Both the position numbers and the translations under genes were made by a program. Below the pieces are notes generated by a model. It ran no database searches and was not told the DNA's origin. It was given only the letters and a program-made list of their open reading frames with translations. From contig NZ_VMBG01000001.1 of NCBI RefSeq assembly GCF_007559335.1, positions 1,054,001-1,118,000 of the forward strand: a stretch of DNA of 64,000 bases. Direction: 5' to 3'. Source of the DNA: Rariglobus hedericola (GTDB lineage: Bacteria; Verrucomicrobiota; Verrucomicrobiia; Opitutales; Opitutaceae). Every line of letters begins with the position of its first letter. The first letter of the stretch is position 1. This document shows positions 30,849-48,193 of this stretch, one piece after another.

Positions 30849-30877
30849 TCCCCCCATCCGCTTTGCGGAGTCCGCCT

Positions 30878-32293
30878 ATGAAACGTTTCAGCCTGCCCCT
30901 TCAACTGGGTCTCTACATCGCCGCTTCCGTCCTGCTCACCCTCGCCGTGGCCGCCGGTTTGTATTCACTGGTTCGTTACACACAGAGGGACTCCGAAGGA
31001 CACATCGACATCATCCGAACCAGCAAGGACAGCGCCTATCGCCTGCTCGAGGAATCCTCGCTGGCCCATGCCGCCCTCAACACCTCCCTGCGCATCAAGG
31101 ACCCGGACGAACTTGAGTCGGCGCTTGCCAAACTCAAGACCGGCACCGAAGCGATCAACGCGCTCATCACCACCTTCGGTGAACCGGGAACTCCCTTAAA
31201 AACCGCCTACGGGCGGGAGACCGAGGCAGGGACCAAAAGCATCGGGTTTCTCCTCGCCGGTGAAAACGCCCGCGCGTTTGAAAACCTTCTGGAAGCGGTC
31301 AATCCCGCCCACGACAGTTTCCTCAGCGCGTTGAAGGCCTACAATGACCTCTGCGACGCCCGCGTGCGTGAGTCGGAAAACGAAGCCGCCGTCATGCTCG
31401 CCAGACGTCTCAAAATCGTCTTCAGCCTCTCTGCCGCCGGTCTGCTCATGATCATCGTGCTCGGCTGGTTTTTCCGCCGTCGCATCACCGCCCGGCTGCG
31501 CGTCGTCACCACCGAGATCGCCACCGCCGCCGATCTGGTGGCCAGCCATGCCAGCCGTGCCGCCGAGATGAGCGAGACCCTTTCCCGCGACGCCTGCAGC
31601 CAGGCCGCTTCCCTCGAGGAAACCAGCGCCTCGCTCAACGAGATCAGCAGCCTGTCGAAGGCCAACCACGAGCAGTCGCAGACCGCCGCCACCGTTGCCG
31701 CGGAAGCACGCTCCGCCGCCGAAGAAGGCACCCGCGAAATCGCCGCGCTCCAAATCGCCATGCGCGACATCGAGTCTTCCAGCGACGCCATCGGTAAAAT
31801 TATCAAGGGCATCGACGAGATCGCCTTCCAGACCAACATCCTCGCCCTCAACGCCGCCGTCGAGGCCGCCCGCGCGGGTGAGGCCGGCGCAGGGTTTGCC
31901 GTCGTCGCCGACGAAGTGCGCGCCCTGGCCCAGCGCGCCGCCGCCGCCTCTCGCGACACCGCCGATCGTATCTCTGAATCCATCGAACGCAGCCGTCGCG
32001 GTGCCGCCCTCGGCAATCGCGCCGCCAAATGCCTCGAAACCATCGTCAGTCGCGCCGCCCAGGTCGACGATATCACCCGCCAGATTGCCACCGCCCTCAA
32101 CGAACAGGATCAGGGTATTCATCAGGTGAATGCCGCCATCAGCCAGATCGACACCCTGACCCAGTCCGGAGCCGCCAACGCCGAGCAAGGCGCCGCCAGC
32201 GCGACCGAACTCCAAGGCCAGTCCGCAATCCTCGGCAAATCTGTCGTCACCCTCGAACAGCTCGCCGGCGTCTCGGCTGCGGCCACGACCTGA
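30878..32293 (+). CDS. Methyl-accepting chemotaxis protein
   Basis: 471 residues. ATG at 30878 is chosen over one 15 bases upstream because GGAG lies 8 bases before it. TM1 (about 10-32), helical periplasmic domain (about 35-185), TM2 (about 187-208), then the signalling coiled coil with [20 protein letters not shown] and [21 protein letters not shown]. Final gene of the heme-receptor, porin, Cache unit. Confidence 0.92.
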
Positions 32294-32519
32294 TTCTTGG
32301 CGTGGCAGATGATTCTGCGCGAGGTTCTCACGCACGCTCCCGCCCGGCTTGAGCCTGTGCTCAGGTTCGCTCGGGGGTTGGACGTCAAACATTTCAGAAT
32401 ACACCATAAAACCATCACGATGCGCTCAACTTCTTAATCGACGCGACGAACATAAGGGCAAACCACACCGGGATAATGCAGTCGATTAGGCTGCTTTCCC
32501 AGGTGCCCACCTTATCATC

Positions 32520-34028
32520 ATGAAAAACTGGACCATCGGAAAACGTATTATTGTCGGCGGGGGCACTCTCCTTGCCCTCTTGCTGATTGTCGCCGCCATC
32601 GGCTTCACCGGGCTTGAACGCATCCACACAAAAAGCATCGAATCGCTCAAGGAGGATGCGATCCCCGGCATCACCAACATCGCCGAAATCGCCACCAATA
32701 CGCTGCGCGCCCATGTGCGCATGCTCACGGCGGGCACGGCGACGACTGTTGAAGCCCGCGAACAAAACCTGGCCACCATGGGCAAGCTTGCCACGGAGAT
32801 TCAAGGCTTCCTTGAAACTTACGAAAAATACATAACCCAGGATGAGGACCGGAATAACTTTGAACTGCTCAAAAAGAAGCGTGAAGCCTACGTTCTGGAG
32901 CGCGCCCGCTACGTCGAACTGGTGCGTGCCGGCAAGCGTGACGAAGCCCACGCCTTCGCCGCGGAAGCGCTGGAGAAAACCTACGGAGAGTATCGCGACC
33001 TCACCCTGCTCATGCTTCACTTCAACGAAGATAATGCCGCGAAGGCAACCGACGATTTGGTTTCCATCGCCCGCCGCTCCGTGACCGCTTCGCTCATCGT
33101 CGCCATCGCCAGCCTGGCCATCGCGCTCGCCTTGGGTTGGATCATCATACGCAGCATCAACCGTGCGCTCCGCGAAATGGCGCAGACGCTCGACGACGCC
33201 TCCTCGCAAGTCGGTGCCGCCGCCGCCCAAGTCTCCGCCAGCAGCCAGTCCCTCGCCGAGGGCTCCAGCGAACAGGCCGCCAGCTTGGAAGAAACCAGTT
33301 CGTCCCTCGAAGAGTTCTCTTCGATGACCAAGCGCAACGCCGACAACGCAACCTCCGCCAAATCCCTCTCCGGTGAGACCCGCGCCTCCGCCGAGACTGG
33401 CAACACCGACATGACCGAGATGCGCCAGGCCATGGACGCCATCAAGACGTCCTCGAACGACATCGCCAAAATCATCAAGACGATCGACGAGATCGCCTTC
33501 CAGACGAACATACTCGCGCTCAACGCGGCCGTCGAAGCCGCGCGCGCCGGCGAAGCCGGTGCCGGATTCGCCGTCGTGGCCGATGAAGTGCGCAACCTCG
33601 CCCAACGCTCCGCCCAGTCCGCCAAGGAGACTGCCAGCAAGATCGAAACCGCCATCCAAAGCGGCGAACACGGTGTGCGCATTTCCGACAAAGTCGCCGC
33701 CTCACTCGGCATCATCATGGAAAAAGCCCGCCAGGTAGATGAAATCGTCGCCGAAATCGCGGTCGCCTCCCAAGAGCAGACTCAAGGCATCAGTCAGATC
33801 AACACCGCGATGAGCCAGATGGACAAAGTCACCCAGTCCAACGCCGGCAGCGCCGAGGAAACCGCCGCCGCCGCCGAAGAGCTCAACAGCCAGGCCGCCG
33901 TGTTGCAGGACAACGTCAGCCAGCTCCGTCATCTCGTCGGTGGCACCCAGGCGTCCCCCGTGCCCTCCACGCAAGTTCGCCCGACCACCAAAATCGGCAC
34001 CGCCCGCGGCCACGCCATGCCCGCCTGA
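32520..34028 (+). CDS. Methyl-accepting chemotaxis protein with four-helix-bundle sensor
   Basis: A 502-residue receptor: TM1 (about 11-31), 4HB_MCP-type periplasmic domain (about 33-188), TM2 (about 190-212), cytoplasmic signalling domain with conserved tip [20 protein letters not shown]. It stands alone after a 226-bp gap and ends in a strong terminator just before the cassette array. Confidence 0.93.
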
Positions 34029-34620: not shown

Positions 34621-34695
34621 GCGAAATGCTTTAGATCAGACATGACCGTAGCCGGCGTGACAGTGCGGGTCATTGTCTGTAACGACTGGTTGGGC
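34621..34695 (-). repeat. attC site A, last in array, degenerate
   Basis: Right core GTTGGGC is intact, but the opposite core reads GCGAAAT instead of GCCCAAC. Inner boxes are kept (CTTTAGATCAGACAT, TGTCTGTAACGACTG). It is the shortest site and probably inactive. Confidence 0.75.
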
Positions 34696-34702
34696 TCCGT
34701 TT

Positions 34703-35194
34703 TCATTTCTTCTCTAATTCGTAAAATGGTGTTTTGGAGTCTATTTTATATAGCTCACCGCCGTCCTTCAGGCTTCTGAATACATCAGGTAAAGGAAGTA
34801 GAGTATCTAAATAAGTCAGTGATTCTTTTCCGTCTAAGACGAAAAGACCGGAGCGTCCCGCCCATGTGCTGCAAAATCCACATAAAGTAACCATCCCGCC
34901 TTTATTGTCACCTTTCACAATCTCGACCAGATATCCAGGCGAATGACCACAAAAGGGGACGTCGTTGCTTCGGGATAATTCTTTCTTTAATAATTCGGCC
35001 AATTTTTCCGATTCTTTAAGCGTAAGATCACGGGTGCCGATTACATCTGCCTGCTTGTCGCCGTAAAATGTAGGCATGAATTTTTCGGTGAATCGAACAC
35101 CGCGTGGATCAATCGCATAGACGCGATAGCGGATCGATTCCGCTTTTACTGCGGAGATCAATAGAACGAATAAGACTAAAGCTCGAATTTTCAT
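34703..35194 (-). CDS. Cassette 16: secreted hypothetical protein
   Basis: A 163-residue protein with a signal peptide (MKIRALVLFVLLISAVKA). Two Cys pairs (PFCGHS and LCGFC) could form disulfides. No family recognised. The stop TGA lies in the conserved box directly before attC A. Confidence 0.7.
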   Translation of the reverse strand: MKIRALVLFVLLISAVKAESIRYRVYAIDPRGVRFTEKFMPTFYGDKQADVIGTRDLTLKESEKLAELLKKELSRSNDVPFCGHSPGYLVEIVKGDNKGGMVTLCGFCSTWAGRSGLFVLDGKESLTYLDTLLPLPDVFRSLKDGGELYKIDSKTPFYELEKK

Positions 35195-35200
35195 TATATT

Positions 35201-35288
35201 GCCTACCGTTCTGGGTCAGACATGCGGGCCCTGTGCTATCGCATTCATGGGGAGCGTAAACCGCATTGTCTGTAGCCGCTGGTTGGGC
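35201..35288 (-). repeat. attC site B
   Basis: Cores GCCTACC and GTTGGGC; the first differs from RYYYAAC at one base. Inner boxes GGGTCAGACAT and TTGTCTGTAGC are conserved; the centre is unlike other sites. Confidence 0.8.
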
Positions 35289-35298
35289 TCCGTGGTTT

Positions 35299-35850
35299 TC
35301 ATTTCTTTTCTTCGGTGAAAATTTGGACTTTCACATCGACTGTCCATGACTGTGGTTTTGTGGGAAATGGATTCAGGAAAAATGAACTGTATTCAGAAGC
35401 CTCTAATAATACATCGAAATGACTCTGATCTAATTTGGTGATGGTTCCTGTGATCAAACTCTTACTTGAATTCCCTTCTCCGCCACTCTTTCGCTCTCGC
35501 GTAAATATTAATGAACTATCGCTTCGGCTTCTTACGGTGACAGGTTCGACCCACATTGGCGGCCTGTCATGATAGCCTAAAACTAGATAAAAAATTTGGG
35601 TCTCTGGGTCTTTGCAGATAGAGAAAAAATCTGGCCTATTCGGGTTCGTTGAGACGCCTTGAAGCAGCGTGTTCTCGACAATAGAAGAATTCGCGATCCA
35701 TTCGGGCGGAGAACCTGAATAGGAAAATACCCCAGAATGCATATCGAAAGGCCCTAAAAATACCACTGGGTGAATCTTCTTTTGAGTGGGCGCGCTACAT
35801 CCAGATATGAAAAATACTGTAAGCGCCAGAATTGATACGATTATTTTCAT
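35299..35850 (-). CDS. Cassette 15: hypothetical lipoprotein
   Basis: A 183-residue protein with a type II signal: lipobox FISGC, Cys18. The remainder is beta-rich with no known motif. The start lies 7 bases from the attC C core, and the stop TGA is part of the conserved box before attC B. Confidence 0.7.
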   Translation of the reverse strand: MKIIVSILALTVFFISGCSAPTQKKIHPVVFLGPFDMHSGVFSYSGSPPEWIANSSIVENTLLQGVSTNPNRPDFFSICKDPETQIFYLVLGYHDRPPMWVEPVTVRSRSDSSLIFTRERKSGGEGNSSKSLITGTITKLDQSHFDVLLEASEYSSFFLNPFPTKPQSWTVDVKVQIFTEEKK

Positions 35851-35856
35851 TTTTTG

Positions 35857-35946
35857 CCCAACGTTCCGGGTCAGACATGCCGAGCCAAAGACTTTAAAAG
35901 CTGAAAGGGGAAGCGCCGAGGTATTGTCTGTAGCCGCTGGTTGGGC
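35857..35946 (-). repeat. attC site C
   Basis: Cores GCCCAAC and GTTGGGC are fully complementary. The central region (CATGCCGAGCC ... GCTGAAAG) is nearly the same as in site F. Confidence 0.9.
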
Positions 35947-35956
35947 TCCGTGGTTT

Positions 35957-36289
35957 TCATTTCATTGGTTCACAATTAAATACAACCGTTCGAAATGTTG
36001 CTTCTCCATCCATATAAATACGGATAAAGTCATAAGATCGCTCTGGCTCTCGTGGCCATGCTGAAAGAATCTTTCTTATTTCCGCTTCATCGGCATATCG
36101 GGCCATATAGTAAAGCCGACCAGTGGATTCATTTTCTAGTGATATAGAAAACACTCGAACTGGCTTTTTAAAATCCGACTGCGCGATTTTCGACTGCGCG
36201 ATTTTCAAAGCAGCATCGAATTGGAGGATTTCTTCTGCGCTGCAAAATGTCGACAACGAAATAAATAACAGGGTGATGAGTGATTTCAT
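35957..36289 (-). CDS. Cassette 14: secreted hypothetical protein
   Basis: 110 residues from the ATG at 36289 (an upstream start would lie inside the attC core). Signal peptide MKSLITLLFISLSTFCSA. It contains a small in-frame duplication, KIAQSKIAQS, from a perfect 15-bp tandem repeat at 36177-36206. Stop TGA is in the conserved pre-attC box. Confidence 0.65.
   Translation of the reverse strand: MKSLITLLFISLSTFCSAEEILQFDAALKIAQSKIAQSDFKKPVRVFSISLENESTGRLYYMARYADEAEIRKILSAWPREPERSYDFIRIYMDGEATFRTVVFNCEPMK
36177..36206. repeat. 15-bp perfect tandem duplication
   Basis: GACTGCGCGATTTTC occurs twice in a row inside cassette 14 and adds five residues in frame. Confidence 0.85.
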
Positions 36290-36295
36290 TTTATT

Positions 36296-36393
36296 GCCCA
36301 ACGCTTTAGATCAGACATGCGGTTTGCTGGCGCGACGGGTGCGAAGCAGCCGGCGTGACAGCAAACTGCATTGTCTGTAACGCCTGGTTCGGC
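36296..36393 (-). repeat. attC site D
   Basis: Cores GCCCAAC and GTTCGGC. Inner boxes conserved; 98 bp. Confidence 0.88.
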
Positions 36394-36400
36394 TCCGTTT

Positions 36401-36619
36401 TCATTCGTCTATTCCGATGGTTATGATCTTCGCAACCGGAACAGCGGCAAAATAGGATACAGCACCAGCTGCCAATATTGGCAGAAATGCGCCAAGGGCC
36501 ATTCCTGCCATGCCGCTCATCATCAGCGCAGTAATTAGCAGTGCAACTGCCCCATAACCTAGGAGAAGAATTCCGATAGATCGGAAAATACAAACGAGAA
36601 CTTTTTGGTATCGTTTCAT
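36401..36619 (-). CDS. Cassette 13: small membrane protein
   Basis: 72 residues from the ATG at 36619. Two hydrophobic helices (about 10-32 and 40-65) with Gly/Ala-rich cores and a basic N-terminus. No family recognised. The stop is the conserved TGA before attC D. Confidence 0.6.
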   Translation of the reverse strand: MKRYQKVLVCIFRSIGILLLGYGAVALLITALMMSGMAGMALGAFLPILAAGAVSYFAAVPVAKIITIGIDE

Positions 36620-36631
36620 GATTTTTATTTT

Positions 36632-36730
36632 GCCGAACGTCAAAGATCAGACACGACCGCAGCTGGCGCGGTGCGTGCGACAGCACGATCCGTGACAGCT
36701 GTGATCGTTGTCTGTAACGACTGGTTCGGC
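36632..36730 (-). repeat. attC site E
   Basis: Cores GCCGAAC and GTTCGGC, compensatory changes that keep pairing. The centre resembles sites O and K (ACGACCGCAGCTGGCGCG). Confidence 0.9.
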
Positions 36731-36740
36731 TCCGTGGTTT

Positions 36741-37139
36741 TCATTTGATTCTGATGTATGAAATTACGCTTTCAGGATTTTCCCATTCGGAAATCGGCTT
36801 ATCGCTCCACTCAAGCACGACCTTGTAGGTAACTTTATGGTATTTCTCTTTCATCTTTTCGATAGCTTCTTTCCCGATTGTTTGGCCGCCCACCTTTTCT
36901 TTTCTTCCTTTTTGTGCGGCACTAAACCAGCCGGAGCCAACAATAGAACTTTGATCGAGATTCCAAGAGCCATCGCCATCAGTAGACCAGCCTTCGCAAA
37001 TTATAGTGAATCTTAGCGGAGCACCTGAGTCATTAAAGCAACTGACGACTAACGACCCATCGGACGCAGAATATGATTCTGAGCGTGGTGCTCCCAGCAG
37101 GAAGGACGGCAAGAGTAGCAGTAGAGTTAGGTATTTCAT
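36741..37139 (-). CDS. Cassette 12: secreted hypothetical protein
   Basis: A 132-residue protein with a signal peptide (MKYLTLLLLLPSFLLG) and a beta-rich N-terminal half (SLVVSCFNDSGAPLRFTIIC). No family recognised. Ends in the conserved TGA box. Confidence 0.68.
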   Translation of the reverse strand: MKYLTLLLLLPSFLLGAPRSESYSASDGSLVVSCFNDSGAPLRFTIICEGWSTDGDGSWNLDQSSIVGSGWFSAAQKGRKEKVGGQTIGKEAIEKMKEKYHKVTYKVVLEWSDKPISEWENPESVISYIRIK

Positions 37140-37147
37140 GTTTTATT

Positions 37148-37238
37148 GCCCAACGTTTCGTATCAGACATGCCGAGCCGGAGACTTTAAATGCTGAAAGT
37201 GGAGGCGCCGAGGCATTGTCTGTAGCCGCTGGTTAGGC
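37148..37238 (-). repeat. attC site F
   Basis: Cores GCCCAAC and GTTAGGC. The centre is nearly identical to site C. The right core contains the stop codon of the next gene. Confidence 0.9.
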
Positions 37239-37685
37239 GAGTTTGATTTTCCCGACTCTTTCTTCGAATGATCCATAAATTGCGACATCGGCTCCGTAGA
37301 AGCCCTGTAACGTGGAGATCCTGAGCAGGGTGCGCTGAATCAAACTACTCAAATTTGCCGGAATGCGGCGCGCATCCTCTCCAAGCCAATCGATAAGGGC
37401 GATGTAGCAACTCGCGCCATCAGGGTCCAGAGCGCTATCATCCGAGAGCAAGTAGCGCGAATAGGCCTGAAGGTAATAGCAGCATGGGATAAATGGCATC
37501 CACATAACATCCTCCTGATAGAGCATCGAATTCTCGCCGAACATCATTTCCGCTTCTTCTAGCGATTTACCAAAGAAATGTTTGTGGGCGGAAGTCGTGT
37601 CCAACGTCCACTCCTCGCTGTGCCATTCTGATTCGCGTGGCAGCTTGGTGAGCAAATCACTGGGCAATACTTTCGGAAGGCGCAT
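37233..37685 (-). CDS. Cassette 11: hypothetical cytoplasmic protein
   Basis: A 150-residue protein with no signal or TM helix, Trp/Tyr-rich in the middle (MWMPFIPCCYYLQAYSRYL). Its last two codons, GCC TAA, are bases of the attC R'' core, so the recombination site supplies the stop. Function unknown. Confidence 0.7.
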   Translation of the reverse strand: MRLPKVLPSDLLTKLPRESEWHSEEWTLDTTSAHKHFFGKSLEEAEMMFGENSMLYQEDVMWMPFIPCCYYLQAYSRYLLSDDSALDPDGASCYIALIDWLGEDARRIPANLSSLIQRTLLRISTLQGFYGADVAIYGSFEERVGKIKLA

Positions 37686-37691
37686 TTTTTT

Positions 37692-37790
37692 GCCTAACGC
37701 TTTAGATCAGACATTTCGTGCGGTGGCACACAAAGCGGCTCCGCCGCGACTGTGACAGTGCACGAAATTGTCTGTAATGACTGGTTCGGC
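37692..37790 (-). repeat. attC site G
   Basis: Cores GCCTAAC and GTTCGGC, 99 bp. Member of a near-identical set with H, J, M and N (TTTCGTGCGGTGGCACAC in the arm). Confidence 0.92.
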
Positions 37791-37813
37791 TCCGTGGTTT
37801 TTATTTTCCAAAA

Positions 37814-38074
37814 TCATGAGGTCTGCTTTAGCTTTCGATAGGCAGCTAATAGTCTTCCGCGATTACCCCAGTCCTCCGTCTCATCCTCGACTTTTGGATT
37901 TATGAAAGTCCCATCATCAGATATGATAGGAATAGACTCTAATCCCATCGCTGCGGCTGCTTTTTTCTGCTCCGGCGTTTCGCTTCGAATGCCAAGCATC
38001 TCTTTTGTATGCATCCAGTCGGCATCGAAGACCTGTTCGAATGCGGCGATAAACTCTTTTGTTTCGGGGCTCAT
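37814..38074 (-). CDS. Cassette 10: small hypothetical protein
   Basis: An 86-residue soluble, charged protein (MSPETKEFIAAFEQVFDADW; ends RLLAAYRKLKQTS). No motif recognised. The stop lies 24 bases before the attC G core, the longest 3' gap in the array. Confidence 0.6.
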   Translation of the reverse strand: MSPETKEFIAAFEQVFDADWMHTKEMLGIRSETPEQKKAAAAMGLESIPIISDDGTFINPKVEDETEDWGNRGRLLAAYRKLKQTS

Positions 38075-38080
38075 AATTTT

Positions 38081-38179
38081 GCCGAACGTTATCGGTCAGA
38101 CATTTCGTGCGGTGGCACACAAAGCGGCTCCGCCGCGACTGTGACACTGCACGAAATTGTCTGTAACGACTGGTTGGGC
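38081..38179 (-). repeat. attC site H
   Basis: Cores GCCGAAC and GTTGGGC, 99 bp, same set as G, J, M and N. Confidence 0.92.
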
Positions 38180-38190
38180 CTCCGTGGTTT

Positions 38191-38667
38191 TCATTTTTTG
38201 GGTCTTCTATCGGGCCAATCCCACGCTTTATGATTCAGTCGCTTATCTGGAGGAAGTGGACCAAAAGAAAAGGTGGAGGCTGTAGAAAGATACTTCTGCG
38301 GTATTTCTTCTCTTTCAATAAAAGCTTTGATGATAATACGCGCATCGCGCATTTGGAGAACCTGGGATGTATCAACTTCGATATAGCCATCCATACTCTC
38401 AATTCCGGTTTTTACGCCTGTGCAGATACTGCGGCCCCAAGTCAGATGCTTAAAATTGCGTTCTGAGTCATAGGTTCTCGTTTCAATAGTAAGTTGATTT
38501 TTGGACCCCGCGCATTGGACGTAGCTGCCATCCTTCAGCTCAAAAACGATGAAATCGGGGCCTTTATTTGCGAAGTAGGATAATCGGGATAAAACGATCT
38601 CCCAGTCGTATAGAAATATGACTCCACCGTTCGCTGGATGGAGGAGGACTTTTCCCGGGAATGGCAT
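38191..38667 (-). CDS. Cassette 9: hypothetical protein
   Basis: 158 residues from the ATG at 38667; the longer frame would run through attC I. The sequence is beta-rich (PANGGVIFLYDWEIVLSRL; FIVFELKDGSYVQC) with no signal peptide. Unrecognised. Ends in a TGA in the conserved box. Confidence 0.65.
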   Translation of the reverse strand: MPFPGKVLLHPANGGVIFLYDWEIVLSRLSYFANKGPDFIVFELKDGSYVQCAGSKNQLTIETRTYDSERNFKHLTWGRSICTGVKTGIESMDGYIEVDTSQVLQMRDARIIIKAFIEREEIPQKYLSTASTFSFGPLPPDKRLNHKAWDWPDRRPKK

Positions 38668-38677
38668 TTTATTTTTT

Positions 38678-38780
38678 GCCCAACGCTCAAGGTGAGACGC
38701 GATCTGCGCTGGCGCGGAGCGTGCTGCTCGGAGCACGATCCGTGACAGTGAGGATCGTTGTCTCTGGCGCCTGGTTCGGC
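38678..38780 (-). repeat. attC site I
   Basis: Cores GCCCAAC and GTTCGGC, 103 bp. Inner boxes GAGACGC/TGTCTCTGGC carry paired changes relative to the other sites. Confidence 0.85.
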
Positions 38781-39118
38781 TCATTTTTATTCTTCAATTT
38801 GATTAAAATCCAAAAAAATCGGCCGCTCTCCGTTCCGAATCTATTTACTTGGTAGTAGTAGCCGGGTTCGGCCGGTGCGTCTACTCTCACGTCCTTCTCA
38901 TTTTCCTTCCAGCTAAGATTAATCGATTGGTTGGGATTTCCGACAAATCCCCCCACGTCGTTGTAAGGGCCCTCCGAAGGCCCTCCATACCTAACGACTG
39001 TGGCTGCTTCGGTATTATATTGGGCCAAGATCTCGGCCTGACTGCGCCCGACGAACTCGCTGCGGTAGCAGCCTGATAGAGCAATCACGGATGCGATAAA
39101 AATAACTACGTTTTTCAT
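38687..39118 (-). CDS. Cassette 8: lipoprotein reading into its attC
   Basis: 143 residues from the ATG at 39118. Lipobox ALSGC near residue 15 predicts a lipoprotein; the following SQAEILAQYNTEAATVV resembles small SmpA/OmlA-like lipoproteins, loosely. There is no stop before the attC: after KLKNKN the frame continues EPNQAPETT through site I and ends at 38687, so about 35 residues of the tail are attC-encoded. Confidence 0.6.
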   Translation of the reverse strand: MKNVVIFIASVIALSGCYRSEFVGRSQAEILAQYNTEAATVVRYGGPSEGPYNDVGGFVGNPNQSINLSWKENEKDVRVDAPAEPGYYYQVNRFGTESGRFFWILIKLKNKNEPNQAPETTILTVTDRAPSSTLRASADRVSP

Positions 39119-39122
39119 TTTT

Positions 39123-39221
39123 GCCGAACGCTTTAGATCAGACATTTCGTGCGGTGGCACACAAAGCGGCTCCGCCGCGACTGTGACACTGCACGAAATT
39201 GTCTGTAACGACTGGTTCGGC
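39123..39221 (-). repeat. attC site J
   Basis: Cores GCCGAAC and GTTCGGC, 99 bp, same set as G, H, M and N. Confidence 0.92.
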
Positions 39222-39228
39222 TCAGTTT

Positions 39229-39660
39229 TCATTTCTTCTCCTGAAGTATCAACATGAAGCTACCGCGATCGAATGCATGAAAGTGCTCTGTTTTGCATAT
39301 CCTCACAAAATGCCCGTGGTATACCGCAGGCTGCGTCGAGCTTAGCGATCCAATATACGTGCTGATCCAAACCCCTTCGCGGCCCTTAGTCTTACGTATC
39401 ACTGAAAAGGAGCTCTCATCCTTTTCGATTACGGAAACCTTCCCATCGCCCTCCTTGATAATAACTAGACCTTCCGGGTTAACTTCGATGACAATCGATT
39501 CCGATTGCGCCAGCGAGATAGCTTGATCGTTCAGCTGCCCCTGCTCAACCAGCAGATATGTGCCAGGCTGAATCTGTAGCACTGGCTGAGGCGGTGGTGG
39601 TTCAAGCCCATACGAACTCGTATATAAAAGAATGCTAAGTAGTAGGGCTGTGATTTTCAT
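39229..39660 (-). CDS. Cassette 7: secreted hypothetical protein
   Basis: A 143-residue protein: signal peptide (MKITALLLSILLYTSSYG), a Pro run (EPPPPQP), then beta-rich sequence (SIVIEVNPEGLVIIKEGDGK). No family recognised. Ends in TGA of the conserved box. Confidence 0.68.
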   Translation of the reverse strand: MKITALLLSILLYTSSYGLEPPPPQPVLQIQPGTYLLVEQGQLNDQAISLAQSESIVIEVNPEGLVIIKEGDGKVSVIEKDESSFSVIRKTKGREGVWISTYIGSLSSTQPAVYHGHFVRICKTEHFHAFDRGSFMLILQEKK

Positions 39661-39666
39661 ATTTTT

Positions 39667-39764
39667 GCCGAACGTTTGAGGTCAGACACGACTATGGCTG
39701 GCGCGGAGGCTGCGCAGCAGCATCCGTGACAGCCATAGTCGTTGTCTGTAGTGACTGGTTGGGC
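39667..39764 (-). repeat. attC site K
   Basis: Cores GCCGAAC and GTTGGGC, 98 bp. Confidence 0.88.
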
Positions 39765-40273
39765 TCCGTGGTTTGAAATACTATAGACTCCCGATTGGTC
39801 ATCAGCATCGCGAAATAAGATGCTGCCGCGTGGGCATCGGAAAATAAATTCTGATTCCGCTCCGAAACTTGTCTGAATATATGTGCGACAAAGCTGGTTC
39901 TTTCGGTGCACACGGCAGCTATAAAATGCGATGCCGTGATTTCTTTCTTTTTGCCTTGTTTGGCCCAGCGTCCCGCACGCTCTAAAATAAATTGAAGGCG
40001 GGGAGTATGGGGCAACGTGACAGGAATCGGCCTTCCGGTGATAACCTGGGCTCCCTTTTCGAGCTCGGCCCAAAATGCGCCCTGATCAATAGGCAACTGA
40101 CGAAGTATAGCGGCGGCATGGCTTGATTCTGGCAGATCTCGCAGACTAAGAAAAACATGCTCAACGCCAACATAATCATGCGAATAACGCCGAGCACGTT
40201 CATGGGCGGCTTTGATAACCGTCGAAAGCTCTGAGCTGATCTTTGGCTTAAAAAAGTGTGCGAACGGGTTCAT
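39692..40273 (-). CDS. Cassette 6: Clp N-terminal (R) domain protein reading into its attC
   Basis: 193 residues from the ATG at 40273; an upstream start lies in the attC core. Residues about 10-125 form a Clp_N double repeat as in ClpA/B/C (AHERARRYSHDYVGVEHVFL; HTPRLQFILERAGRWAK; ITASHFIAAV) with no AAA+ module, so it may act as an adaptor or decoy for a Clp protease. There is no stop before the recombination site: after IVFQT the frame reads TEPNQSLQTT, translated from attC K. Confidence 0.78.
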   Translation of the reverse strand: MNPFAHFFKPKISSELSTVIKAAHERARRYSHDYVGVEHVFLSLRDLPESSHAAAILRQLPIDQGAFWAELEKGAQVITGRPIPVTLPHTPRLQFILERAGRWAKQGKKKEITASHFIAAVCTERTSFVAHIFRQVSERNQNLFSDAHAAASYFAMLMTNRESIVFQTTEPNQSLQTTTMAVTDAAAQPPRQP

Positions 40274-40279
40274 TATTTT

Positions 40280-40382
40280 GCCCAACGTTTGAGGTCAGAC
40301 ACGAATCGCGCTGGCGCGGAATGTGCAGCTCGGAGCACATTCCGTGACAGTGCGGTTCGTTGTCTGTAGTGATTGGTTAGGC
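40280..40382 (-). repeat. attC site L
   Basis: Cores GCCCAAC and GTTAGGC, 103 bp. The centre is nearly identical to site P (CGAATCGCGCTGGCGCGG). Confidence 0.9.
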
Positions 40383-40832
40383 TCCGTTTTCAACTTCTTG
40401 AAGAATTTGGATTAACTTAGCGGGATAGCTTCTGATTTCCTCGTTGGATTCCTGCATATTTCGTAACTCCCGTCGCACGCCAAACCAATATTTTAGTCCT
40501 AAATCTTCTGAGTATTTAGTGGATTCGATATCCTTATAAAAACCCTCAAGCTGCGTGATCTGCCCGTTGCATGTGACTATTGCGGACTCAATACTCTTCT
40601 TGTATCTGGGGTCTCGTTTGCTAGACGCCAACTGCAGGGCGGTCTCGAATGATTTAAGATGTGATCTAGCCTCGATGATTTGGAGTCGAATGCCACTGAG
40701 TGTATCGTCGCGCATTTGCTCAAAGACCTGCTCTGTCTGGAGGCTGCCCATCGAGCGACTTTCGTTCCAAGCCAATGCGGATATTATCAGGGCGCCGAAG
40801 GCTATGATATTTGAGATATTTGGCTTGGTCAT
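40377..40832 (-). CDS. Cassette 5: membrane-anchored helical protein
   Basis: A 151-residue protein with one N-terminal TM helix (about 7-22) and a long helical body (LQIIEARSHLKSFETALQLA). Function unknown. The last codons GGA GCC TAA overlap the attC R'' core. Confidence 0.68.
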   Translation of the reverse strand: MTKPNISNIIAFGALIISALAWNESRSMGSLQTEQVFEQMRDDTLSGIRLQIIEARSHLKSFETALQLASSKRDPRYKKSIESAIVTCNGQITQLEGFYKDIESTKYSEDLGLKYWFGVRRELRNMQESNEEIRSYPAKLIQILQEVENGA

Positions 40833-40841
40833 ATGCTTTAT

Positions 40842-40940
40842 GCCTAACGCTTTAGATCAGACATTTCGTGCGGTGGCACACAAAGCGGCTCCGCCGGGAC
40901 TGTGACACTGCACGAAATTGTCTGTAACGACTGGTTGGGC
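40842..40940 (-). repeat. attC site M
   Basis: Cores GCCTAAC and GTTGGGC, 99 bp, same set as G, H, J and N. Confidence 0.92.
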
Positions 40941-40951
40941 TCCGTAGGTTT

Positions 40952-41414
40952 TCATTTCTGGGCGAGCTTTAAATACACGATTATCGGGAAAATCGAGGAC
41001 AGTGAAAATATGACACCTGCCGTAACTAAAAAAACATCCTGAAATCTAATTCCTCTGAATAAGCGAGATTCGCTAAAACTGATGGGGTCAAAATACACAT
41101 CCGTCACATCCCCCCTTCTTAAATAAACACATTCCGGATTTGTTCGAGGTCGATATCAGGGAATTCCATTTTCCGGTATAGGCTCTATCATCAACGACAT
41201 AATGATACTTAACCTTATACTCTATCGCAATTCGTGATCGTCCTTTGCCTTTGGTTCGGTGGGATTCTTCGGATACCTCCTCAATCAATCCATTGGTTTT
41301 TGGCCACTTGCGGGAAGCGAGCGCGCGCTTGACGTCCGGAATTCCTGCGTAGATCGCAATCACGCCAAATGCGACGAATACGAAAGCGATCAAAATGGCG
41401 GCGGATAATGGCAT
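40952..41414 (-). pseudogene. Cassette 4: DUF3592-like membrane protein, frameshifted
   Basis: The frame starting at 41414 encodes a TM helix (about 5-25) and a DUF3592-like domain (PDVKRALASRKWPKTNGLIE; AIEYKVKYHYVVDDRAYTG), but shifts out of frame at a run of six G (41110-41115, C on the plus strand). In another frame it continues GDVTDVYFDP, then a second TM helix (LVTAGVIFSLSSIFPIIVYL) and ends in the conserved TGA at 40952-40954. Removing one G would restore a complete protein, so this is a recent mutation, a slippery site or a sequencing error. Confidence 0.7.
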
Positions 41415-41424
41415 TTAATTTTTT

Positions 41425-41523
41425 GCCCAACGCTTTAGATCAGACATTTCGTGCGGTGGCACACAAAGCGGCTCCGCCGCGACTGTGACACCGCACGAAA
41501 TTGTCTGTAACGACTTGTTAGGC
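41425..41523 (-). repeat. attC site N
   Basis: Cores GCCCAAC and GTTAGGC, 99 bp, same set as G, H, J and M. Confidence 0.92.
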
Positions 41524-41931
41524 TCCGTTTTTGTTTTCAAAGGATATACGATTAAATCCGAGCTTTTTCAGATCGTCTAGTATCCGAGTAAATATCTGAA
41601 AATCATCAACCTCCATGATGATCTTAATGACTCTGGTTCGATCTTCGTTAGTCAGCTTTTCTTTCAGTTCCGTCACCTTGAATCCTGCGCCATCAAGCGA
41701 TATCTCACCTGCTGATCTGACCCTAATAAATATCGGTTCCGATTTTTCTGGATCTGGCTTTGGTAGAATTGAATTGGGGACTAGCGAGCTATCTATGACG
41801 ACTTCTTTCTGCTTAAGATCGATAACTGTCTTCGCTCCGATTTTGTGCGCTTCGCGCATGTCGATGTATGCAAATACACCGACGATCAATAGCGCCACTG
41901 CGCCTAGCGATATCCAAATCATTTTATTCAT
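41518..41931 (-). CDS. Cassette 3: ExbD/TolR-like protein
   Basis: A 137-residue protein with one N-terminal TM helix (about 5-22) and a C-terminal domain with ExbD/TolR pattern (IFIRVRSAGEISLDGAGFKV, a helix LKEKLTNEDR, IKIIMEVDDFQIFTRILDDL, LGFNRISFENK). True ExbD has an Asp in the TM helix for proton use; none is evident here, so it may be a non-energising relative. The last two codons GCC TAA come from the attC core. Confidence 0.65.
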   Translation of the reverse strand: MNKMIWISLGAVALLIVGVFAYIDMREAHKIGAKTVIDLKQKEVVIDSSLVPNSILPKPDPEKSEPIFIRVRSAGEISLDGAGFKVTELKEKLTNEDRTRVIKIIMEVDDFQIFTRILDDLKKLGFNRISFENKNGA

Positions 41932-41934
41932 TTT

Positions 41935-42037
41935 GCCTAACGACTAAGATCAGACACGACCGCAGCTGGCGCGGAATGTGCGGCTCGGAGCACATTCCGT
42001 GACAGCTGTGGTCGTTGTCTGTAACGCCTGGGTAGGC
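41935..42037 (-). repeat. attC site O
   Basis: Cores GCCTAAC and GGTAGGC (one base off GTTRRRY). The centre resembles sites L and P in one part and E in another. Confidence 0.82.
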
Positions 42038-42210
42038 TCTATAGTCATTCGATGACTAGGGAGATACACAGGCGAGGGTTTGGTGGTTTGGGTGGATCGA
42101 AATTGGATCGAGGCGGTGCCGCTGGGTTCGGACTTGAGAAACGTAAGAAGGCTTCGCCCCGTGGCTTCCACGCTTGCGGTCTGTCTTTGGTTTGAATTTC
42201 CGACTTTCAT
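41950..42210 (-). CDS. Cassette 2: doubtful open frame in a short cassette
   Basis: The only ATG-started frame (86 residues) reads straight into attC O and has no recognisable feature. A second frame ending in a normally placed TGA has no start codon and an upstream in-frame stop. The roughly 220-bp cassette may be gene-less, carry a decayed gene or act through RNA. Confidence 0.25.
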   Translation of the reverse strand: MKVGNSNQRQTASVEATGRSLLTFLKSEPSGTASIQFRSTQTTKPSPVYLPSHRMTIEPTQALQTTTTAVTECAPSRTFRASCGRV

Positions 42211-42253
42211 ATAACTCTGGCTACTCGCTCGCTGCTTCCGTGAATTCCGTTTT

Positions 42254-42355
42254 GCCTACCGTTTGAAGTCAGACACGAATCGCGCTGGCGCGGAATGTGC
42301 GGCTCGGAGCACATTCCGTGACAGTGCGGTTCGTGTCTGTAGTGACTGGTTGGGC
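42254..42355 (-). repeat. attC site P, first in array
   Basis: Cores GCCTACC and GTTGGGC, 102 bp, centre nearly identical to site L. Confidence 0.85.
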
Positions 42356-42989: not shown

Positions 42990-43244
42990 TTATGGCGCCG
43001 GTTTGGGCGGCGCGACGATCTTGGGCAGCGCGAGTTTGGGTAGGGCGGCTTTTTGTCCGGGGGCCACGGCGGCGGATTGGTTGGTCGCGGCGATGTCGGC
43101 GAGCACTTCCTTCCGGAACACCGGCACCTCGCGCGGGGCGGAAATACCGATCTTCACCGTGTCACCATCGATGCGCGATATGCGGATCTCGATGTTGTCA
43201 CCGATGACGATCGATTCATTTACCTTGCGGCTGAGAACGAGCAT
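42990..43244 (-). CDS. csrA: CsrA translational regulator with Pro/Ala-rich tail
   Basis: 84 residues. The CsrA/RsmA core is typical ([38 protein letters not shown]), with the RNA-binding Arg in APREVPVFR. The tail from about residue 55 is an Ala/Pro/Lys-rich extension about 25 residues longer than in E. coli CsrA. It lies 12 bases after fliW, whose product sequesters CsrA until flagellin accumulates; flagellin mRNA is the usual target. Confidence 0.93.
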
Positions 43245-43256
43245 GGCGGATGGCGT

Positions 43257-43694
43257 TTAGCTGGCGGTGACGAGCGGGTGGCGGACGTTGAAGCGGGCAT
43301 GGTTGGACAGCACCACTTGCTTGGCAAGACCCGTGCGCCGGTTGATCACGAGCGGACTGACCAGATTGACCGTCGCGGTGGCCGGCAGGGAGCGACTCAC
43401 CGTGACGATATTGAGGATGAGCGCATCTTCGGGACCGGTTATGCCGAGAAAAGCCGCATCCTCGTCAAAGAGCTCCAACTCGTAATCGGGAATGACGCCG
43501 CCCGGCTCGATCACGACGAACTGGATCGTCTCGGGCCCGTGCAATAAGAGCCACCGAAACGGCGCCTGCTCGGGGTCGAGCAACAGTTCGAACGATTTGA
43601 ACTCGGAGAAACCGATCAGCCCTTGAGGCAAGCTGAAGCTCGGAAACGGGGCCTCGGGGGACGGGGCAACCAGGGAATCGGAAGTGACTTTCAT
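43257..43694 (-). CDS. fliW: Flagellar assembly factor FliW
   Basis: A 145-residue protein that binds CsrA and flagellin, coupling flagellin translation to secretion. Family patterns are clear: FSLPQGLIGFSEFKSFELL, WLLLHGPETIQFVVIEP, and TVNLVSPLVINRRTGLAKQVVL (around residues 108-129). It sits between flgL and csrA, the common order. Length is typical. Confidence 0.92.
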   Translation of the reverse strand: MKVTSDSLVAPSPEAPFPSFSLPQGLIGFSEFKSFELLLDPEQAPFRWLLLHGPETIQFVVIEPGGVIPDYELELFDEDAAFLGITGPEDALILNIVTVSRSLPATATVNLVSPLVINRRTGLAKQVVLSNHARFNVRHPLVTAS

Positions 43695-43709
43695 GGTGTC
43701 GGGAAAAAA

Positions 43710-44606
43710 TTAACGGAGATAATCGAGTAGGGAAAGGTTCATGATCTTACTGGCGGACGCGAGAGCCGCTTGATACGAGGTCGTGGTCTGGCTGAGTTTG
43801 ACCATGGTGCCGGCGAGATCGGCATCGGCCTCGGCGGAGGCGAGGTTCTCCAGACTGTCGGCACGCGATGTTTGCTGGGTCTTGGCCACATCGAGCCGCA
43901 GCTGAATGGCGCCGTTTTCGCTGATCGCACCCAGGATCGTGTCGGTCGAACCCTCCAGCCCTACTCCCGCGGCATGCACCGTGGTCGTGTCGTTGACGTT
44001 GAGCGCATCGCGCAACGCGACCAGCCGGTTGATCAAATCGCGGATGCCCTCGTTGGTCGCACCATCGGTGCGCGGAGCAATCGTCGCAGTCTCCGAAAGC
44101 GGGATCGAGGCCCGCTCCAGATTGCCGGCGTAGGTTGCGGCGGTGATCTGACCGGCGCCATCGCGGGCCACGGTGAATGGCGCGGTGTCGAGCGCGGTGC
44201 CGGCAAACAGATAGTCGTTTCCAAAGCGGGTGTTGCCCAGATGCACGGCCTGTTCGAGCAGCTGGTTGACCTCGGAGCCATAAGCGCGCGCCGATTCCAG
44301 GTTCAACACACCGCCGCCCAGCGTGGAGAGTTCGCCGGCGCGGGTGAGCAGATTATTGAGGCCGGTGAGCCCGCTGTAGCTCGCCTGCGCGAGGTTCGTG
44401 CCGACATCGATGTTTCGTTTATACTGGAGGATCTGGCTCTGCTCGTTGCCGATCGAGAGCATGCGCCCCATCGCAGCGGGATCATCGGAAGGGAGGAAGA
44501 TGCGCTGATTGGTCGAAACCTGTTTCTGCAACTGGGCCTGCTGCGTGCCCAGTTTTTGCAGTTGGGAGATGACGTTTTCCGAGGTGCTACGAGTGGGGAC
44601 GCGCAT
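43710..44606 (-). CDS. flgL: Hook-filament junction protein FlgL
   Basis: A 298-residue flagellin-like junction protein (HAP3). N-terminal D0/D1 (ISQLQKLGTQQAQLQKQVST; FLPSDDPAAMGRMLS) and C-terminal helix (TSYQAALASASKIMNLSLLDY) are characteristic. It follows flgK by 106 bases and precedes fliW by 15. It connects hook and filament outside the cell. Confidence 0.92.
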   Translation of the reverse strand: MRVPTRSTSENVISQLQKLGTQQAQLQKQVSTNQRIFLPSDDPAAMGRMLSIGNEQSQILQYKRNIDVGTNLAQASYSGLTGLNNLLTRAGELSTLGGGVLNLESARAYGSEVNQLLEQAVHLGNTRFGNDYLFAGTALDTAPFTVARDGAGQITAATYAGNLERASIPLSETATIAPRTDGATNEGIRDLINRLVALRDALNVNDTTTVHAAGVGLEGSTDTILGAISENGAIQLRLDVAKTQQTSRADSLENLASAEADADLAGTMVKLSQTTTSYQAALASASKIMNLSLLDYLR

Positions 44607-44712
44607 AAAATAAGGTGGTGGGGAAAGTTTAAGTTGAAGGGGACGGAAGCGGAATCAGGCCGGAGGGATGGGGCTTAAACTTAATCTTTTCGCTTAATGA
44701 GCCGGGCTTCGC

Positions 44713-46131
44713 TCAGGCGCCGAGCCGGTTGACGACGGTGTCGAGCAATTCGTCGATCACCTGGATGAAACGGGACGAGGCCTGGAAAGAGCGTTGGTAT
44801 TTCACGAGGTCGGCGAGTTCTTCATCCATCGAGACGCCGCTGACCGAATCACGCTGGGTGGTCACGATGCTCTGAATGTTGATCTGGTCGTCGTATTGAT
44901 CGGAGGTGCGCGCCGAGATGGAGCCGAAGTTACTGACCATACTGGCGTAATACTGCGCGAACGTGCCGTCGATGGCGTCGCCGCCGGCGGTGGTGAATTT
45001 CTTGCCGGCCAGCTGCGCGACGGCGAGCGCCAGTGTATTGCTGCCGGCCGCGCCGCCGTCGGAAGCTTTGAGATTCGTCGCTGTGAGTCCGGCCTGCAGT
45101 TTGATGGTGCCGGCGGTGGTTCCGGCAGAGGCGAAAAAATCGCCGGTGGCGCCGGTTGGATTGTAGGCGGCATTCACCGAATCGACGAGTTGGCCCGCCA
45201 TGTTGTCGAGCTGGTCGCGCAGCAGCTGCACGGTGATGTCACGGGCCTGAAGATTGCCGTGAATAGCACCGGCGGTCACATCCACGGTGGTGGCCGGACT
45301 ACCGGCCGTGAGCGCGGAACCGGTGAGCGTGACCGGGCCGGTGACCGCGGCGAGCTGCACCAACGGAATCTCGGTGCCGCCGGCATCGCGCACATACACG
45401 TCGATCTGACCGGCGGCGGAGGCCGAAGAACGTGTTTCAAAATTAATCTTGGTCGCAAGTTTTTCGAGCGCGGCCTGGCGTTGATCGCGCAGATCGGCGG
45501 CGGAGCCCGGGGTGTTGATTTCGAAATGGCCGATCTCGCCGTTCAACTTGGCGATGGTCGAAAGCAATGTGTTCACTTCGCCCACATCGGTATCGAGTTG
45601 TTCGGTGAGATCGCTCTGGAGCTGGTCCAGACGCGTGTCCACCTGCTGCAAGGTGTCGGTGAGGATCGACGCCTGTTGCACCAACGTCTGGCGCACGCCC
45701 ATGTCGGTCGGGCTGGTCGCAAACGAATCAAACGCGGAGAAGAAATCGCCGAGCGCACCGGCTATGCCACCACCGGTGGATGAAGATGTGGAGCTGGCGC
45801 TGGCGGAACGATCAATGGACTGCCCCAAGGCGGCCTCGGCTTTTTGGTAAGCCGACTGGCGCGATGAAAGCGACGCCGTCAGCGCGATCTCCCTTGCGGC
45901 CTGGCGATCCAGCAACGTGTCGCGGATTTGCTGCACCTGCTTCGCCTCAACGCCCAGTGACTGCGCGCCGAGCGGAGTCTGCACCGTGCCGCGATCACCC
46001 AGCAAAACGCGCTGGCGGGCATAGTTGGCGTTGTTGACGTTGGCGATGTTGCGACCGGCGGTCTCAAGGGCACGCGACTGCGCGTTGAGGGCTTTGACAC
46101 CGGAGGCGAGACTACCGAAGAGGCCGGACAT
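44713..46131 (-). CDS. flgK: Hook-filament junction protein FlgK
   Basis: A 472-residue HAP1. The N-terminus LFGSLASGVKALNAQSRALE ... TAGRNIANVNNANYARQRV and the C-terminus VSMDEELADLVKYQRSFQAS ... FIQVIDELLDTVVNRLGA are diagnostic of the rod-hook-FlgK axial family. Shorter than E. coli FlgK (547). Its chaperone gene flgN lies 54 bases upstream. Confidence 0.94.
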   Translation of the reverse strand: MSGLFGSLASGVKALNAQSRALETAGRNIANVNNANYARQRVLLGDRGTVQTPLGAQSLGVEAKQVQQIRDTLLDRQAAREIALTASLSSRQSAYQKAEAALGQSIDRSASASSTSSSTGGGIAGALGDFFSAFDSFATSPTDMGVRQTLVQQASILTDTLQQVDTRLDQLQSDLTEQLDTDVGEVNTLLSTIAKLNGEIGHFEINTPGSAADLRDQRQAALEKLATKINFETRSSASAAGQIDVYVRDAGGTEIPLVQLAAVTGPVTLTGSALTAGSPATTVDVTAGAIHGNLQARDITVQLLRDQLDNMAGQLVDSVNAAYNPTGATGDFFASAGTTAGTIKLQAGLTATNLKASDGGAAGSNTLALAVAQLAGKKFTTAGGDAIDGTFAQYYASMVSNFGSISARTSDQYDDQINIQSIVTTQRDSVSGVSMDEELADLVKYQRSFQASSRFIQVIDELLDTVVNRLGA

Positions 46132-46185
46132 TGTTTTTTAAATTTGAAGTGAAAAGAGAGCGAAGAGCTGTGAAGACGTGCGCCT

Positions 46186-46677
46186 TTAACCGGCGGCCTG
46201 CCAGGCGGGTTGTTCGCCGCCGATGCTCACCGAGCCGTGCGGAGAATAGGTTCGCGTAAACGCGGCCGGGCGCAGCGCACGCAGCGTGTCCTGATGAATC
46301 TCCATCGCGCGATGGATCATCTGGTGGTTGCGCTTCACGCCATTGCGGACGCGGCGGATGAGGTGGTTGATCTCGTCGATCAACGCGGAGAGCAACGGGC
46401 GCACCTCGTCGGGAAAGAGCGAAAGGAGCTGACGCAGCGTGGAGGTCGCCGGCTGTTTTTTGGATTCCGCAAAGTGCTGCACCGCGTCTTCACGACGGTC
46501 ACGCAGCTCGGCGGTGACGCGCACCTGCGCCTCGATTTCGTGGGCGTAGGACAGCACGGCATCGGGATCGCCGCGCAGGAGATTATCCTGTTGTTCGGTG
46601 AAGAGCTGCAGGAGACCGCCGTAGGCTTGTAGCTCGGAGCGGAGGTTTTCGACGAGGATTTCCCAGTCAGGATGCAT
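46186..46677 (-). CDS. flgN: FlgN-type export chaperone
   Basis: A 163-residue helical protein (WEILVENLRSELQAYGGLLQ; LTEQQDNLLRGDPDAVLSYA in part) with FlgN family pattern, the chaperone for FlgK and FlgL. Position directly before flgK and flgL supports it. It follows flgJ by 18 bases. Confidence 0.85.
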   Translation of the reverse strand: MHPDWEILVENLRSELQAYGGLLQLFTEQQDNLLRGDPDAVLSYAHEIEAQVRVTAELRDRREDAVQHFAESKKQPATSTLRQLLSLFPDEVRPLLSALIDEINHLIRRVRNGVKRNHQMIHRAMEIHQDTLRALRPAAFTRTYSPHGSVSIGGEQPAWQAAG

Positions 46678-46695
46678 GAGGAGGAATTTTTAAAA

Positions 46696-47088
46696 TTACG
46701 TGGAGGGTGAAGATACGTCGGCGTCCGTCGTGGCGGGTGCCGGCGGCGCGAGTTGTTTTTCAAGCATGCGGGCGATACCGAGACCGCCCGAGGCTCCAAG
46801 CGAACTGCACAACGTGTCGGTGAGCATGTAGCCGTAAACACTGCCGCCTCCGCCACCGGACGAGCTGCCCGAACCTCCGAGACCACCGCTCATCATCGGC
46901 TCGATGCTCGGGCCGAGCAGCTGGCGCAGAATGATCGCTTCAAATTGTCCGGCGGCTTTTTTGACGTCGGCCGGCGTGGGCTTGGCGGGCAGGTTTTTGG
47001 TCGAAGGCATGCCCATGGGGCCGCCTAATTCACGGGACCAGCTGGCTTCAGGCGCGGCGGCGACGGCGGATGTGGCGGAGATCGACAT
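46696..47088 (-). CDS. flgJ: Rod-binding protein FlgJ, N-terminal domain only
   Basis: 130 residues from the ATG at 47088, just after the flgI stop; a longer frame overlaps flgI. The rod-binding motif KKAAGQFEAIILRQLLGPS is clear, then a Gly/Ser run, then YGYMLTDTLCSSLGASGGLGIARML. The muramidase domain found in E. coli FlgJ is absent, as in many bacteria, so peptidoglycan must be opened by another enzyme. Confidence 0.88.
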   Translation of the reverse strand: MSISATSAVAAAPEASWSRELGGPMGMPSTKNLPAKPTPADVKKAAGQFEAIILRQLLGPSIEPMMSGGLGGSGSSSGGGGGSVYGYMLTDTLCSSLGASGGLGIARMLEKQLAPPAPATTDADVSSPST

Positions 47089-47092
47089 GGGG

Positions 47093-48193
47093 TTAGTTGA
47101 TGACGAGTTCGGCCTGGAGCGCGCCCGCACGTTTGAGGGTTTGGAAGATGGCCATCATCTCACGGGTGGAGACGCCGAGGGCGTTGAGCGCCGAAGCCAG
47201 GCGGTCGATGCTCGGTGTTTCGTTGATCACCGAAAAGCCGCCCTTGGATTCCTTCACGTCGGTCTGCGTGGACGGCAGGACAACGGTCTGCCCGGAGTTG
47301 TTAAATGAGTTGGGCTGCGAGACGCCGAGATTGGAAGATACGGTGATGGTCAACGCGCCGTGGCTAATCGCCACCTGCGAAAGACGCACCGATGACGTGG
47401 CGACAATGGTGCCGGTGCGTTCGTTGATGATGATGCGCGCCTGCAAGTCCGGCACGACCTCGATGGCTCCCACGTCGGAAAGGAAGGCGACCTCGCGCCC
47501 GGCATAGGTTGCGGGAAGTTTCACATCGATACTGGCTGCATCGCGGGCGCCGGCGGCGCCTGGATACACGACATTGATCGCATCGGCCATGCGGGCGGCC
47601 GAGGTAAAGTCGGGGTTGTGCAATTGAAACGTGAGCATGCCATCCCGCACGAAAACCGCCGGGATCTCCCGCTCGACGATCGCGCCGTTGCTGATCACGC
47701 CGACGGTGGGATGATTTTTCTGCACCGTCGCCCCACCCGCGCCACCGGCACCGCCGAGAAAACCGCCGATCGCAATCGGGCCCTGTGAAACGGCGTAAAC
47801 ACGACCGTCAGCACCAAGTAACGGCGTCTGCAAAAGCACGCCGCCCTGAAGCGACTTGGCATCACCCATCGAGGCAACGGTGACATCGATGCGGGAGCCC
47901 GGCTTAAGAAACGCCGCGATGTCCGCAGTGATCATCACCGCGGCGGCGTTCTTGGCCTTGATCTGCGAGGAATCCACCGTGAGACCGCTGCGTTGAAGAA
48001 TGTTGGCCACGGAGCGCAACGTCGTGACGGCGTTGGAATCACCATCGCCGGCCAGGCCGACCACGATGCCGTAGCCGACGAGTTGATTGTCCCGACTGCC
48101 GTCGACGTGCGAAAGGTCTTTCACGCGCGAGGCGGACACCGACGTGGCGAACGAACCCGCCAGACCGAGAGAAATTAAAAAACGAAAGATCAT
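47093..48193 (-). CDS. flgI: Flagellar P-ring protein FlgI
   Basis: A 366-residue periplasmic P-ring subunit with signal peptide (FRFLISLGLAGSFATSVSA). Typical blocks: RDNQLVGYGIVVGLAGDGD, AAVMITADIAAFLKPGSRID, and near the C-terminus DLASALNALGVSTREMMAIF-like sequence. P and L rings imply a two-membrane envelope. Between flgH and flgJ. Confidence 0.95.
   Translation of the reverse strand: MIFRFLISLGLAGSFATSVSASRVKDLSHVDGSRDNQLVGYGIVVGLAGDGDSNAVTTLRSVANILQRSGLTVDSSQIKAKNAAAVMITADIAAFLKPGSRIDVTVASMGDAKSLQGGVLLQTPLLGADGRVYAVSQGPIAIGGFLGGAGGAGGATVQKNHPTVGVISNGAIVEREIPAVFVRDGMLTFQLHNPDFTSAARMADAINVVYPGAAGARDAASIDVKLPATYAGREVAFLSDVGAIEVVPDLQARIIINERTGTIVATSSVRLSQVAISHGALTITVSSNLGVSQPNSFNNSGQTVVLPSTQTDVKESKGGFSVINETPSIDRLASALNALGVSTREMMAIFQTLKRAGALQAELVIN

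Follow-up and report, generated by a model that had tools for sequence, protein, structure and literature searches.

The window analysed here, a stretch of 64,000 nucleotides from Rariglobus hedericola, contains 16 attC sites in one array; they are 75-103 nt long and all have the same R''/L''/L'/R' layout. The R''/R' boxes and the imperfect palindrome repeat between single genes, which identifies an attC cassette array, and 12 of the 16 sites were recovered with a generic hairpin finder. No integrase gene was found in the window (the IntI model matches 9 places in the genome, 0 of the 9 within the window), and the array is a CALIN, that is, an attC cluster without a nearby intI. A scan of the whole genome with an attC-type pattern gave 78 matches, and a full IntI (372 bits) adjoins a different array of the same genome. 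On contig 5 (L036/L037), an intact integrase at C5:6193-7122 adjoins one array, and a second integrase, in pieces at C5:58678-59550, adjoins another. The flanking regions inspected around the window array were 42990-54200 and 24320-34028; as named by eye, the neighbours are csrA/fliW and flagellar genes to one side and, to the other, several methyl-accepting chemotaxis-like genes.

In the window, the stop of most cassette genes falls in the 5' flank of attC or in R''. According to a sequence-only reading of the stretch, a lipoprotein gene and a Clp N-domain (Clp-N) gene have no stop ahead of their attC, which then encodes a tail beginning EPNQ(S/A). Both ORFs are indeed present on the minus strand, and the tails comprise 31 residues in the lipoprotein and 24 in the Clp-N protein. 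The features are as follows.

34621..42355, minus strand: attC array of 16 sites with the common R''/L''/L'/R' layout
38687-39118, minus strand: lipoprotein ORF including the tail; ATG at 39118, no stop ahead of its attC
38783..39118, minus strand: lipoprotein gene body of 112 codons, from the ORF listing and codon usage
38782-38690, minus strand: attC-encoded lipoprotein tail of 31 residues, EPNQAPETTILTVTDRAPSSTLRASADRVSP; its stop, 38689-38687, is inside attC
38678..38780, minus strand: attC of the lipoprotein cassette, 103 nt, from R''/R' and the hairpin
39692-40273, minus strand: Clp-N ORF including the tail; ATG at 40273, no stop ahead of its attC
39767..40273, minus strand: Clp N-domain gene body of 169 codons, from Pfam PF02861 and PDB matches
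39766-39695, minus strand: attC-encoded Clp-N tail of 24 residues, EPNQSLQTTTMAVTDAAAQPPRQP; its stop, 39694-39692, is inside attC
39667..39764, minus strand: attC of the Clp-N cassette, 98 nt, from R''/R' and the hairpin

With the gene strand folded as RNA, the attC hairpins have energies of -42.3 kcal/mol (lipoprotein cassette) and -51.7 kcal/mol (Clp-N cassette). The Clp-N ORF scored 26.9 bits against PF02861 (cut-off 20.7), which places it in Clp_N, and PDB chains of ClpA/ClpC N-domains match the protein within residues 3-135; the match ends about 30 residues short of the tail. Because no ATPase domain is present in the ORF, it is not a full Clp ATPase. A single-sequence structure model of the protein had a mean pLDDT of 40 and was uninformative. 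The lipoprotein ORF contains what we take, by eye, to be a signal peptide with a lipobox-like LSGC. It had no Pfam or NCBIfam match, and no homologues of its body were found among plasmids; a search of 250 genomes of the family matched attC tails alone and never the body, and a search of the genome contigs collection gave a single match, which was spurious and covered only the signal peptide.

A frameshift or homopolymer sequencing error, with the true end in another frame, is an improbable origin of the lipoprotein tail. By eye, a run of T7 lies 31 nt ahead of attC and both other frames carry stops in the last 16 nt, as such an error would have it, but codon usage over the final 45 nt favours the annotated frame (0.31 vs -0.50 and -0.38) and the Clp-N gene would be left unexplained. 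A frameshift in this gene was rejected because codon usage gives it no support. The tails had also been expected to change when a cassette recombines. Integron crossover is located in R', which neither ORF reaches: their stops are at +70 and +91, upstream of R', and recombination therefore leaves both window tails unchanged.

Cassette genes that run into attC

Arrays were surveyed in this genome and in 13 relatives of the same family (14 genomes), which together yielded 349 sites. The intervals between adjacent sites comprised 287 cassettes of 180-2200 nt, of which 233 were coding (45 weak and 9 gene-less cassettes were left out), and genes at least 95% alike were merged to give 218 genes. With positions given relative to attC, the stop was upstream of -16 in 65 genes, in the flank (-16 to -1) in 88, at 0 to +3 (R'') in 21, and further into attC or beyond in 44. 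The same four classes held 9, 33, 7 and 6 of the 55 non-redundant coding cassettes of R. hedericola itself, and two of its six attC-entering genes are doubtful, one from a mis-called site and one from a gene-poor repeat cassette (L032:6474-6767 and L036:2233-2550); entry into attC is thus the exception in this genome. Pfam searches of 20 attC-entering genes gave T5orf172 as the one clear family, and NCBIfam searches of ten proteins gave Clp matches alone.

The 44 attC-entering genes do so in the EPNQ frame in 30 cases, in the GCC frame in 11 and in the AGC frame in 3. Cassette genes meet the module of the family (attC plus its 5' flank) in any of the three frames, and this module carries a set of stops that is fixed. 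The TGA of (A)TGAAAAC(CAC)GGA|GCC, at -13 or -10, commonly closes one frame; a second often ends at a TGA at -3 or at the TAA of GCCTAAC; and the third, EPNQ, meets no stop until close to the end of attC. The frames in which genes reach the flank are near-equal in number (AGC 57, GCC 56, EPNQ 40; p 0.17), and the gain of a tail is therefore set mainly by the stops of the module and not by a frame preference of the genes. Genes that arrive in the EPNQ frame without a stop of their own fuse to the module and gain roughly 25-30 residues. About 13 nt ahead of R'' are common to unrelated cassette genes of the family and often include their stop codon; this shared flank (-16 to -1) looks as if new genes had joined a ready-made module of stop plus attC, which bears on cassette formation.

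It is most improbable that the tail marks cassette proteins as a functional tag or degron, as had been suggested. The EPNQxLQ motif recurs in many tails, a point in favour of such a role, and a conserved C-terminal peptide of the kind expected of a proteolysis tag or degron was nevertheless not found. For each group of attC sites, synonymous and nonsense changes were counted in the unique variants between positions -2 and +66; synonymous changes in the EPNQ frame showed no excess (150 vs 154±9.5 expected), and the EPNQ peptide is accordingly not conserved. Homologous cassettes also bear differing tails: two homologous genes of the relative G051 (L083:14810-15265 and L083:10311-10787) have a common body and tails in two different frames, and in a homologous pair from different genera one gene stops at -7 and its partner enters attC. 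The genes that enter attC in the GCC frame (11/44) or the AGC frame (3/44) have unrelated tails.

The sequence-only reading had further allowed for 3' truncation during cassette formation and had looked to homologues for the natural C-terminus. The one case in which truncation could be assessed was a tailed T5orf172 gene of G051 (L083:9141-9878), for which four plasmid homologues were used (40 records found, six inspected) together with two copies from contigs of relatives, taken regardless of their surroundings. The G051 gene is about as long as these six homologues, all of which, when aligned, end at or before the start of its attC; it therefore looks complete, with only its stop missing. 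In this relative's gene the comparison lent truncation no support.

Openness of the EPNQ frame and its limits

For the analysis of reading frames, 280 distinct attC sites from the 14 genomes were used, leaving out identical copies, sites too near an edge and those whose R'' pattern had three or more mismatches. Past +60 the EPNQ frame remains open in 266 of them, the AGC frame in 145 and the GCC frame in 179; in the window array 16/16 sites keep the EPNQ frame open to +70 or further. The sites were grouped by shared 7-mers into 98 clusters, and the cluster representatives were compared with 200 structure-preserving shuffles, in which the outer 22 nt of each side were fixed and base pairs were permuted within the stem. 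The EPNQ frame was open in 87 of the 98 representatives vs 69.4±4.2 in the shuffles, none of which (0/200) reached 87, a null that overstates independence because site clusters share ancestry. The other frames were at the null, with 60 open representatives vs 58.1 (AGC) and 53 vs 49.4 (GCC). Nonsense variants were clearly depleted in the EPNQ frame only (6 vs 15.6±3.7 expected; AGC 17 vs 19.5, GCC 25 vs 13.6).

From these patterns the tails are read, with modest confidence, as a by-product of a frame that is probably kept free of stops as a path for ribosomes across the attC hairpin. Ribosomes that end a cassette gene would re-start at an ATGA, and in the tailed genes would never stop; they would translate through attC, keep the mRNA hairpin open and arrive at the start of the next cassette. 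Selection would act on the lack of stops and not on the peptide.

Several results count against a path of this kind. In 11 of the 14 genomes the EPNQ frame ranks first in openness; in G198 GCC equals it, and in G083 and G113 AGC exceeds it. These last two genomes speak against the preferred reading, as does the weak depletion of nonsense variants when the inner attC is taken alone (2 vs 5.3±2.1). Stops in the L' box, moreover, can close any frame that reaches it. Under a doubtful though serious alternative, pure accident, attC sites are GC-rich and related by descent, one frame happens to be stop-free, and captured genes read through it with nothing selected. The near-equal frames of genes at the flank and the lack of conservation of the peptide are as accident would predict, and so is the outgroup array, in which 12 hand-picked sites had no excess openness (9, 10 and 5 of 12 by frame). 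Against accident stand the excess of openness over the structure-preserving shuffles in the EPNQ frame alone and the confinement of nonsense depletion to that frame. A generic hairpin finder was also run on 40 stretches from other families of the phylum; no array was found there at strict settings, and lax settings gave mostly false sites.

The start of the reading frame within attC (the mini-ORF) was located from ATGA in the flank. Where ATGA occurs in the 20-nt flank, its ATG is in the EPNQ frame in 103/139 cases, at six offsets (-20, -17, -14, -11, -8 and -5), and this phase, kept at several lengths, likewise argues against accident. The phase bias is weak outside offsets -14, -11 and -4 (20, 10 and 8; p 0.04), and 18 ATGA at -4 are in the AGC frame, which counts against a stop-free path. 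Stops in the flank are part of an ATGA in 58/88 genes, and those further upstream in 15/65. An EPNQ-phase ATGA is present in the flank of 101/280 sites and the frame runs unbroken from it into R'' in 100 of the 101, which gives an ORF inside attC that starts at the stop of the upstream gene and, under the preferred reading, would be translated. Sites without such an ATGA are equally open (168/179), so the start of the mini-ORF and the openness of the frame are not tied to each other; this independence counts against the stop-free path and would also suit accident. The peptide typically starts MK(T)TEPNQ and has a median of 29 residues counted from its E. In the window the starts are as follows.

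39200..39232, minus strand: example of a mini-ORF start, MKTEPNQSLQT; the ATG of ATGA overlaps the TGA of the upstream gene 39660-39229
42366, 42048, 36744, 36404, 35960, 35302 and 34706, minus strand: other EPNQ-phase ATGA starts, worked out from the offsets

The window table has an EPNQ-phase ATGA at 7/16 sites by the offset list, plus one in the 22-nt flank overlap. The median distance from the stop of the EPNQ frame to the next ATG downstream is 20 nt, and the end of the frame falls within -30 to +40 nt of that ATG in 208/240 cases, vs 95 for AGC and 96 for GCC. Within the window the frame leaves 0-45 nt to the following ATG at 14/16 sites; of the remaining two, one is the last of the array and one continues in frame into the lipoprotein gene. 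At this latter site, the mini-ORF of the preceding attC and the lipoprotein gene form a single ORF of 181 codons (39232-38687) that links two cassettes. Shine-Dalgarno motifs were found in 0/56 cassette genes and 2/18 chromosomal genes, so that neither group uses them and the comparison is uninformative; there is therefore no demonstrated need for coupling, which again counts against a ribosome path.

Possible translation through attC and known systems

Extended to the whole family, the preferred reading becomes tentative: attC may double as a translated, stop-free corridor that keeps its phase to the preceding stop and ends just before the next start, the order of cassettes may tune translation through attC, and the protein tails may be its visible, fused form. 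A short ORF in attC of class 1 integrons was reportedly described by Jacquier et al. in 2009, which is known to us through a review. According to that review, such an ORF, with termination-reinitiation, is proposed to keep the hairpin open and to favour the next cassette (PMC8876359). The sites described here are similar in that an ORF in attC is entered from the stop of the preceding gene. They differ in extent and form. The class 1 ORF, as the review describes it, is occasional and concerns single cassettes (PMC8876359). In the family studied here, most attC sites of the 14 genomes keep the frame open; its ATG overlaps the preceding stop, forming ATGA in a constant phase, and some cassette genes fuse with the frame.

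As with ORF-11, ORF-17 and ORF-18 of attI1, a short ORF in a recombination site would aid the following gene, an effect that is predicted here; according to the same review, however, those ORFs lie in attI1 and serve the first cassette, whereas here there is one in each attC (PMC8876359). Translation across a cassette boundary has likewise been proposed for fused cassettes such as blaGES-1/aacA4, in which attC is largely lost (PMC4670013), whereas the attC sites described here are intact and would be part of the translated stretch. A literature search, with subscription papers mostly outside its scope, looked for tails encoded by attC and for an attC ORF shared by a whole family; among the matches listed, the class 1 review was the sole precedent (PMC8876359).

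How distal cassettes are translated past stable attC hairpins in long arrays is unsettled in the field. If the proposed path is real, a stop-free frame would be a simple answer, with each cassette carrying its own ribosome bridge, and attC would evolve under a coding-like constraint (no stops) besides its folding constraint. The EPNQ-like tails of hypothetical proteins encoded in arrays of this kind would then be explained as a by-product, and there would therefore be no need to seek a function for the tail.

The arrays of R. hedericola (L031, L032, L035 and L036) contain repeated copies of a gene-poor cassette about 170-174 nt long, for example the one ending at L036:4651, which encodes a short ORF, MNISGARN..., that crosses attC. 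The genome has 8 sites that bear this motif; the leader is in the GCC phase at 8/8 of them, 7 with ATGA. A related MNISGARN leader is present at 28/67 sites of the relative G150, where ATGA is in the EPNQ phase in 26/28. Examples from both genomes end 18 nt ahead of the end of R'.
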